Assembly: GCA_955652835.1 (NCBI GenBank)
Contig: CATPBO010000208.1
Location: forward strand, 1 to 42,049
DNA length: 42,049 bases
Direction: 5' to 3'
Source: Candidatus Dormiibacterota bacterium
Lineage (GTDB): Bacteria > Chloroflexota > Dormibacteria > Dormibacterales > Dormibacteraceae
In this document: positions 5,892-8,202 of the stretch, one piece after another
Numbering within the stretch: position 1 is the first letter of the stretch
Layout: every line of letters begins with the position of its first letter
Notes under the pieces: generated by a model
What the model was told of the DNA's origin: nothing
The model's database searches: none
Seen by the model: only the letters and a program-made list of their open reading frames with translations
Position numbers and translations under genes: made by a program

Positions 5892-6221
5892 TTGGACCTG
5901 CTCAGACTGATCCCTCCTGGCCTGATCGTGGGCACTTTGATGGTTCTGATTCTGTCCCAACTGTTTTTTGCCTTCCTGCCCTACCGCCGGCGCGCTTACA
6001 TACCGATCCTTCTGATGACCGCGATCGGGTTCGCGCTCGGCCAACTGTGGGATTTCATCGGCCTCTCTTCGTTCCGCCTGGGGGAGGCGAACGCGCTGCC
6101 TGCCGTCGCGTTCGCTCTTCTCCTCCAGCCCCTGGCGCGCTTTGTGCCGCGCCCAAGCCGGGAACCCAAGGAACCAAAACCGAGCAAGCCCGAAGACTCT
6201 CGACCGGCGCGTGGCCAATAG
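5892..6221 (+). CDS. Small predicted membrane protein with charged/Pro-rich tail
   Basis: TTG start with GGAGGG Shine-Dalgarno; hydrophobic IPPGLIVGTLMVLILSQLFFAFLP...IPILLMTAIGFALGQLW. Confidence 0.6.
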   Translation: MDLLRLIPPGLIVGTLMVLILSQLFFAFLPYRRRAYIPILLMTAIGFALGQLWDFIGLSSFRLGEANALPAVAFALLLQPLARFVPRPSREPKEPKPSKPEDSRPARGQ

Positions 6222-6237
6222 GAACCGCCCGGTTCCT
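6220..6237 (+). terminator. Hairpin after the 5892 gene, possible terminator
   Basis: Perfect 7-bp inverted repeat AGGAACC-GCCC-GGTTCCT overlapping the stop codon; only a weak T-rich tail. Confidence 0.4.
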
Positions 6238-6257
6238 TCTCATACACTTGCTTTTGT

Positions 6258-6283
6258 GTTTGCAGGCTTGATCCAAAGGGTAT
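6258..6283 (+). promoter_or_regulatory. SigB/SigF-type promoter: GTTTGC-N14-GGGTAT
   Basis: Matches the B. subtilis SigB consensus GTTTAA-N12-15-GGGTAT; 7 nt before the ATG of a DUF948 gene linked to a SigB-like factor. Confidence 0.6.
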
Positions 6284-6290
6284 TCACAGG

Positions 6291-6614
6291 ATGAGCGCGC
6301 AGAGCTTCATGTGGCTCGCGTTCGGGGTCGCCGCGCTTCTCGTGGCGCTGGCCCTGGCCGCGGTGCTTTTACGGCTCCGCGGCACCCTTGGGGCGGTTGA
6401 AGAGCTTTTGGAAACGACCAATGAGGAGATGAAGGAGACGCTGCCCGAGGTCCGGCAGACCATCGGGAACGTCAACGACATCACGGCCGGCGTAAACGTA
6501 GGTCTGCGGACGGCGGGCGGCGGAGCGGCGGCTGCTGGTCGCGGGATTCGTTCCGCTGCTCACGGTGTGAAGGTGGCGGGTCAGAGCCTTGTTCGAACCG
6601 TATTAGGAGGTTAG
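6291..6614 (+). CDS. DUF948 (YtxG-like) general-stress-type protein
   Basis: N-terminal TM helix then ELLETTNEEMKETLPEVRQTIGNVNDITAGV, typical of DUF948. Confidence 0.7.
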   Translation: MSAQSFMWLAFGVAALLVALALAAVLLRLRGTLGAVEELLETTNEEMKETLPEVRQTIGNVNDITAGVNVGLRTAGGGAAAAGRGIRSAAHGVKVAGQSLVRTVLGG

Positions 6615-6616
6615 CG

Positions 6617-6946
6617 ATGGCTGACGAGACGAACGGTGGCGGTGGTGGCTTTGGTTGGTTCATTCTTGGCGGCTTGATCGGTCTCGCCGCCGGCGCCTAC
6701 ATTGCTTCGGGCCCAGGACGATCCCAGGTCGACAGCCTCCGCAGCAAGACCATCGAGCTCAGCGGAAGCGAACCAGTGCAGCGCGCGAAAGACGCAGCAC
6801 AGCGTGCGCGGCAGATGGTCACCGATCCGGATCACCCGGTCGGCAAGGCGATCCAGGACGGGGTCGCGGCCGCGAAGCGCAAGCGCGAAGAGCTCGAAGC
6901 GACGGCCATGCGCAAGATGCAGCAGCCCACGGACGGCAAGGAATAA
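6617..6946 (+). CDS. YtxH-like protein
   Basis: Gly-rich TM FGWFILGGLIGLAAGAYIASGPGRSQVDSLRSKTIEL followed by an Ala/Lys-rich amphipathic region; follows DUF948. Confidence 0.65.
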   Translation: MADETNGGGGGFGWFILGGLIGLAAGAYIASGPGRSQVDSLRSKTIELSGSEPVQRAKDAAQRARQMVTDPDHPVGKAIQDGVAAAKRKREELEATAMRKMQQPTDGKE

Positions 6947-6959
6947 AGGAAGAGGACAG

Positions 6960-7382
6960 TTGGCTAAGCGCAACCTGGCTGAGCTCAAGATCCCGGCGTC
7001 GTCGGCGTTCATTCCGGTCGCCAAGCGGGTGGCCACGACGCTCGGCGGCCAGTTGGGTTTCAGCCTGGTGGACCTTGACGAGCTGACGATTGCCCTGACG
7101 CAGGCATGCGACAGCGCGATCGCCGCGGCGAGCGATCTGGGCTCGCCGGCGGACCTCAAGCTCACCTACTTCGCAACCGATCGCGCGTTGGTGGTGGACG
7201 TCGACCTGATGCCAAGCGGCAACACAGCCCTCCCCGCGCCCAAGCCAGACGCCGCCGTCGACCCGGAGCTGCAGCGACTCGCCTACGAGATGATCCGCTG
7301 CTTCGTTGACGACTTCCGGCCCCAGGTCGAGCCCACTACCGGGCACGTCAGTTTCCGGATGGTCAAGTACCTGGCGGGCTGA
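6960..7382 (+). CDS. RsbW-like (HATPase-fold) anti-sigma factor, apparently kinase-degenerate
   Basis: SSAFIPVAKRVATTLGGQLGFSLVDLDELTIALTQACDSAIAAA...GHVSFRMVKYL resembles RsbW layout; directly precedes the SigB-like factor; TTG start. Confidence 0.65.
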   Translation: MAKRNLAELKIPASSAFIPVAKRVATTLGGQLGFSLVDLDELTIALTQACDSAIAAASDLGSPADLKLTYFATDRALVVDVDLMPSGNTALPAPKPDAAVDPELQRLAYEMIRCFVDDFRPQVEPTTGHVSFRMVKYLAG

Positions 7383-7419
7383 CCGCCGCCCGCACTCAAA
7401 AAGCCGACACTAAAGGCCA

Positions 7420-8202
7420 GTGGCTGCACAACAGCGGATTCCCCGCGAAGAGCTGCGGGCGCTCCATCGTCGCTATAGGGAGACAACGGACCCGGCCGAG
7501 AAGGAGCGCATTCGCGAGCAGCTCGTCAACGCTTATCACGACTTCGTCTACTTTCTCGCCCGCAAGTTCCAGAACCGCGGCGAGCCGCTCGACGACATCG
7601 TGCAGGTTGGCTATCTCGGTCTCATCAAGGCCATCGAGCGCTTCGACCCCGACCTGGGATTTGAATTCACGACCTTTGCCACGCTGACCGTCGCGGGGGA
7701 GATCAAACGGCACTTTCGAGACAAAGGCACCGCCATCCGCTTTCCGCGCCGCCTCCAGGAGCTCCACCAGTCCGTGGTTCGCGTCAATGAACAGATGAAG
7801 AACGAGCTCGGAAGGGAGCCGACCGTGGCCGAGCTGGCCGAACGACTGGGCGTAACGCCGGACGATGTGACCGAGGCGATGGAAATGGGCCCGGCCTACA
7901 TGCCGCTTTCCCTGGACCAGCCGATCGCTTCAAGCGATGGCGGGGACAGCCGCGCTATCGCCGACCAGATCGGCGGCGCGGACCCTGAGCTGGACCGAGT
8001 CGAGATGCGCGACGTCCTCGACCGCGCGATGGAGCACTTGACACCGCGCGAGCGGGCGATCATGGCGATGAGGTTTTACGAGCAGATGTCACAGTCAGAG
8101 ATCGCTCGCCGACTCGGCATCAGCCAGATGCACGTCTCGCGCCTGCAACGGGCAGCCCTCGAGCAGTTGCGAAAGTACGTGCCGCAAGAATCCGCCTCTT
8201 AG
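7420..8202 (+). CDS. sigB: SigB/SigF-family RNA polymerase sigma factor
   Basis: DDIVQVGYLGLIKAIERFDPDLGFEFTTFATLTVAGEIKRHFRDKG; HTH MSQSEIARRLGISQMHVSRLQRAALEQLR. Confidence 0.93.
   Translation: MAAQQRIPREELRALHRRYRETTDPAEKERIREQLVNAYHDFVYFLARKFQNRGEPLDDIVQVGYLGLIKAIERFDPDLGFEFTTFATLTVAGEIKRHFRDKGTAIRFPRRLQELHQSVVRVNEQMKNELGREPTVAELAERLGVTPDDVTEAMEMGPAYMPLSLDQPIASSDGGDSRAIADQIGGADPELDRVEMRDVLDRAMEHLTPRERAIMAMRFYEQMSQSEIARRLGISQMHVSRLQRAALEQLRKYVPQESAS

Follow-up and report, generated by a model that had tools for sequence, protein, structure and literature searches.

A predicted autoregulated operon for a SigB/SigF-type stress sigma factor in uncultured Dormibacteria

The sigma factor operon and its conservation

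The window, the whole 42,049-nt stretch of DNA that was analyzed, is one contig (C208) of a 2.63-Mb draft genome (G000), 85% complete. The host is an uncultured soil bacterium of the class Dormibacteria, and its best named relatives are soil MAGs labelled Ca. Dormiibacterota or 'Chloroflexi'. Four genes on one strand follow the motif GTTTGC-N14-GGGTAT, and 7 nt separate the motif from the ATG of the first gene at 6291. They encode a DUF948 protein, a small membrane protein at the YtxH position, an RsbW-like protein, and a sigma factor (Table 1). The preliminary description had reported this array, and both the coordinates and the profile matches bear it out.

Table 1. Positions of the genes and promoter elements of the operon in the window
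Feature	Position	Strand	Basis
TACACT, candidate housekeeping -10	6243..6248	+	TAnnnT hexamer 5' of GTTT in relatives
GTTTGC, SigB-type promoter -35	6258..6263	+	kept in 29/29 clade-A upstream sequences
GGGTAT, SigB-type promoter -10	6278..6283	+	29/29 with N16 after GTTT; variants in 5/9 clade-B loci
DUF948 protein, 107 aa, one N-terminal membrane helix	6291..6614	+	PF06103
YtxH-position small membrane protein, 109 aa	6617..6946	+	weak PF12732 in orthologues; synteny with L315
RsbW/SpoIIAB-fold protein, 140 aa, without kinase residues	6960..7382	+	AlphaFold2, Foldseek, profile alignment
SigB/SigF/SigG-family sigma factor, 260 aa	7420..8202	+	TIGR02980

For comparison we used 42 genomes from 14 genera of the same order and family as the window genome. 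Clade A comprises the genera in which the RsbW-like protein shares about 70-95% identity with that of the window (g1, g2, g5, g7, g10, g11, g12), and clade B comprises those near 50% identity (g3, g4, g6, g8, g9, g13, g14). The order DUF948-YtxH-RsbW-like-sigma is kept in related loci of the order; the preliminary description had named a lack of such conservation as a refutation. As far as the loci extend, clade A reads aspS, a 109-aa membrane protein gene, DUF948, YtxH, RsbW-like, sigma, pdxH, alaS, and pilM. Clade B retains the four operon genes together with alaS and pilM, while pdxH is variable. In the window, the sigma stop codon and the pdxH start share one base (8200-8202); the spacing of these two genes differs among relatives, and pdxH was not found there in several clade-B loci. 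The 109-aa membrane protein (5892-6221), which belongs to no known family, adjoins the operon throughout the order, and membrane proteins of like size occupy its position in two further loci (L064 and L315). Directly 3' of its gene is an inverted repeat, GGAACCG-CC-CGGTTCC (6221-6236), a possible terminator, and some relatives carry like repeats.

The sigma factor is a member of the SigB/SigF/SigG family, scoring 275.8 bits against TIGR02980 (cut-off 234.35), with regions 2, 3, and 4 all present (PF04542, PF04539, PF04545). Its 209 bits against the SigB equivalog model TIGR02941 fall below the cut-off of 315, so it is not a Bacillus SigB equivalog, and it reaches no equivalog cut-off among SigB, SigF, and SigG. 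The best PDB match is 8x6g_H (6e-49). It is the sole SigB/F/G-type sigma factor that the genome search recovered; the runner-up shares 36% identity with it across part of its length.

The first two genes are less easily named. The DUF948 protein passes the PF06103 cut-off by a narrow margin (38.4 bits against 37.2), and the clade-B counterpart tested falls below it. A Pfam search returned no PF12732 match for the window's YtxH-position protein, and the best of 15 orthologues reaches only E=0.089, so we abandoned a Pfam-based YtxH label for it. The name is weak by sequence but is backed by synteny, because a clear YtxH gene (1.8e-14; 54.4 bits, cut-off 37.5) occupies the equivalent position in a distant member of the Chloroflexota outside the class (L315). 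That locus (L315/L327, G069:C65) runs from an 87-aa membrane protein through a DUF948-sized protein and YtxH to a related sigma factor, with no RsbW between. Its DUF948-sized protein has no Pfam DUF948 match, and no SigB-type motif was found at the locus.

A predicted SigB-type promoter and other copies of its motif

Written out, the motif at 6258-6283 is GTTTGC-AGGCTTGATCCAAA-GGGTAT, with the GTTT -35, the GGGWAW -10, and a spacing in the known range of SigB-type promoters. The promoter consensus of this sigma family is KTTTW-N12..17-GGGWAW (PMC9847131). It is the sole GTTT-N14..18-GGGWAW site of the window, where 0.35 are expected by Markov-1 resampling, and GTTTGC-N13..15-GGGTAT occurs once in the whole genome, in front of this operon. 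All 29 distinct clade-A upstream sequences contain GTTT-N16-GGGTA with identical spacing (0.01 expected from shuffles). Five of nine clade-B loci examined carry a variant motif whose spacer is N16 or N17, two of them having AGGTA; a search of the upstream regions of L129, L133, L138, and L139 found none. The conservation in clade A supports the SigB-type promoter of the preliminary description, and autoregulation is its natural reading.

All 29 clade-A sequences also have a TAnnnT hexamer 5' of GTTT, mostly TAAGAT at -15. Its counterpart in the window, TACACT, 15 nt 5' of GTTT, is a candidate housekeeping -10, with no -35 shown for that promoter. The start point of the SigB-type promoter is predicted at or near the ATG. 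The DUF948 start lacks a Shine-Dalgarno sequence, whereas the YtxH-position gene has a strong one and the RsbW-like gene also has one, as would be expected if the first gene were leaderless. The operon mRNA from the SigB-type promoter is thus probably leaderless.

To find other copies, the 42 genomes were searched with unanchored and start-anchored patterns against a reversed-pattern control. G000 alone gave two matches against three in the control. Across all 42 genomes, the unanchored search gave about 127 matches against 54, and 73 against 36 when a start codon was required. Because the enrichment is modest over the 42 genomes and absent in G000, we relied on whether sites recur at orthologous genes. 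The preliminary description had named a motif no more frequent than by chance as a refutation: the motif exceeds chance in its conservation but not in its counts in the window genome, and support for the motif is conservation, not frequency.

The most regular recurrence is at a gene for a conserved 112-aa protein of no known family: 25 of the 30 loci examined, every one of the 25 from clade A, have the motif 5' of it with hardly any shift in position (0.1-0.2 expected). Of the five loci without it, four are in clade B, and in the fifth, from clade A, the match starts at residue 31. In the window genome, the site (G000:C13:2449-2484, L189) is 7 nt before the gene, which itself lies 3' of a DedA gene. 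The site falls within the DedA reading frame in some genera and is embedded in unrelated upstream sequence in g2; selection on coding sequence is thus not enough to account for it. Just 3' of the 112-aa gene, weaker matches indicate a second related gene. In front of clpB, the strict form of the motif is found at 6 of 29 loci and the relaxed form (GGGWA) at 14, with 0.06 expected; in genus g2, it precedes a group-2 sigma gene in 10 of 14 cases (0.02 expected). Genes for hsp20, lon, and msrA have it 5' in one or two genomes each. The protein families of these last targets were confirmed in Pfam. Most candidate sites are 5-13 nt before the start codon, suggesting that these mRNAs, too, may be leaderless; the start-anchored pattern is biased to sites near start codons, and the 112-aa and group-2 sigma sites were already in the unanchored search. 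The site-bearing upstream regions of hsp20 are nearly identical in two genera (L185, L186), which may mean transfer or contamination, so these sites may not be independent. Two other recurrent matches were not retained. A GTTTAA-N14-GGGTAW match 5' of an rpoB-like gene (L170-L180), seen among the matches only in g2, overlaps a G+C-rich hairpin with a varied stem. The match GTTTAGGGCGTGGACTACCCGGGTAT, identical in several genera, is presumably antisense 16S rRNA and was set aside. The remaining copies indicate a predicted stress regulon centered on protein quality control, and with it a promoter code for the uncultured Dormibacteria.

The motif could instead serve another sigma factor or be some other conserved element, leaving the operon without autoregulation. 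The single-genome counts, not above control, speak for this; yet the motif fits the promoter class of the sigma family (PMC9847131; GTTT-N17-GGGTAA for SigF), and the genome offered one SigB/F/G-type sigma. We regard this alternative as very improbable and the four genes as, in all likelihood, an autoregulated stress operon. They would form the core operon of a general stress sigma factor of SigB/SigF type. Assuming that sigma factor and promoter pair as their classes suggest, the protein would read the GTTT-N16-GGGTA promoter before DUF948, giving positive feedback, and a housekeeping promoter just 5' would probably supply basal expression. It would also read the promoters of clpB and the 112-aa gene and, depending on the genus, those of the group-2 sigma, hsp20, lon, and msrA genes.

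The RsbW-like protein and a separate RsbU-RsbV-RsbW locus

Against PF13581, the window's RsbW-like protein scores E=0.034, which misses the cut-off, while its best orthologue reaches 1.1e-11. The AlphaFold2 model is confident (pLDDT 86), and in Foldseek its best match is RsbW (6m37, 1.4e-9), with UsfX (8ih8) and SpoIIAB (1l0o) also matched, which places the protein in the RsbW/SpoIIAB fold. When its profile is aligned to RsbW 6m36, TQACDSA stands opposite SEACTNA of RsbW. The catalytic Glu is Gln in all 15 aligned sequences, the Mg-binding N-box Asn is usually Ser, and the glycine boxes are absent in the alignment. With these kinase residues lost, we infer that the protein does not phosphorylate RsbV; it would most likely hold the sigma factor while having no phosphorylation target at all. 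The Glu-Asn pair is also broken elsewhere in the class, where other families show different combinations, for example with Glu kept and Asn changed to His.

The preliminary description had called the unit self-contained. As regards the switch, this does not hold: the unit has no RsbV or phosphatase, its RsbW-like protein lacks both kinase and ATP-binding residues, and a canonical set of RsbU, RsbV, and RsbW is encoded elsewhere. On contig C90 of G000 (L116, L124), a gene for a receiver-SpoIIE (PP2C) phosphatase is divergent from rsbV and a kinase-type rsbW, and no sigma gene was seen on this 4.5-kb contig. The set recurs in clade A, where it keeps the N-box E and N, the DxG and GRG motifs, and the DS(T/S)GL serine of RsbV. 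We looked for a STAS gene adjoining the sigma operon and saw none. A STAS match is missing altogether in 9 of the 42 genomes, eight from clade B (three of them 94-96% complete) and one from clade A (85% complete), so control by an RsbV in trans is not universal.

In the window's clade, the kinase-type RsbW of the separate locus would phosphorylate RsbV, and the receiver-PP2C phosphatase would take the phosphate off again. Unphosphorylated RsbV would then bind the RsbW-like protein and free the sigma factor, as for SigF of Mycobacterium smegmatis. We lean, by a small margin, towards such partner switching in trans acting on the kinase-less protein. The model as a whole, a sigma core operon with autoregulation, a regulon, and a switch in trans, is the best overall explanation and, in our judgment, reasonably probable.

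The RsbW-like protein might also be an antagonist rather than an anti-sigma factor, induced by the sigma factor, pairing with another RsbW and so boosting sigma activity. RsbW3 of M. smegmatis is such a case, being kinase-negative, having a GTTT-N17-GGGTAA promoter, and raising SigF activity via RsbW1 (PMC7693655). The Dormibacteria are similar in that a SigB-type promoter precedes the operon with the kinase-less homologue and that a second RsbW is encoded. Yet an anti-sigma factor gene usually lies beside its sigma gene, as the RsbW-like gene directly does here, and the protein persists in genera without detectable RsbV. We consider this role unlikely.

A third possibility does away with partner switching. 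The RsbW-like protein would be an adaptor or fixed anti-sigma factor, with its hold set by DUF948 and YtxH as sensors of envelope stress. The DUF948 and YtxH-position genes are co-conserved with the sigma gene, in L315 the corresponding pair directly precedes a related sigma gene, and the eight clade-B genomes have no detectable STAS protein. However, YtxG and YtxH of Bacillus subtilis are not known to us as SigB regulators. They are listed there as SigB targets (PMC7824861), and in clade A, RsbU, RsbV, and RsbW are all retained, their motifs intact, at a locus where no neighboring sigma gene was seen. This reading is about as doubtful as the antagonist one. A narrower form, in which only the sister genera without detectable RsbV restrain sigma through the RsbW-like protein without a partner switch and DUF948 and YtxH govern release, appears slightly less likely still. 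If true, it would describe a stress sigma circuit that has given up RsbV phosphorylation. Either way, these genera offer a natural experiment on whether partner switching is dispensable.

Comparison with known systems

The closest parallel to the proposed circuit is SigF of M. smegmatis, with chaB-rsbW1-sigF at one locus and rsfB-rsbW2 together with RsfSR acting in trans. There, SigF is bound by RsbW1, which shows no kinase activity, while RsfB gains its phosphate from RsbW2 and loses it to the receiver-PP2C protein RsfR (PMC7693655, PMC10950880). Both systems have a kinase-negative RsbW beside the sigma gene and, elsewhere, a kinase-type RsbW next to an RsbV-type gene with a receiver-PP2C phosphatase close by. 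In our set, this split, with RsbV, kinase-type RsbW, and receiver-PP2C away from sigma, is found in clade A, whereas most clade-B genomes lack STAS. The promoters are alike as well: rsbW-sigF has two, one SigF-dependent, in front of chaB (PMC7693655), and here one sigma-dependent promoter of the GTTT-N-GGGTA type is accompanied by one that would be independent. A likely target gene heads the operon in each case, chaB in M. smegmatis and the DUF948-ytxH pair in Dormibacteria, so that joining a target gene to a sigma operon has a precedent in chaB-rsbW-sigF (PMC7693655). The Dormibacteria differ from M. smegmatis in that some sister genera have no detectable RsbV, the position of most sites points to leaderless mRNAs, and no histidine kinase was identified. 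Taken together, the comparison suggests that the design of a kinase-less RsbW with a kinase in trans occurs in another phylum.

B. subtilis sigB is similar in sigma family and promoter class. RsbW of B. subtilis is a kinase and RsbV is encoded within the sigB operon, whereas in Dormibacteria the neighboring RsbW-like protein lacks kinase residues and RsbV is elsewhere. The B. subtilis sigB operon has a sigma-A and a sigma-B promoter, and ytxG/ytxH are in the SigB regulon (PMC7824861). The ytxGHJ (csb40) operon differs from ours in that no ytxJ-like gene is present here, regulator genes follow instead, and YtxH membership rests on synteny. It is alike in having DUF948 and then YtxH behind a SigB-type promoter, a likeness that would tie the otherwise unexplained pair within the sigma operon to SigB-type control beyond Bacillus.
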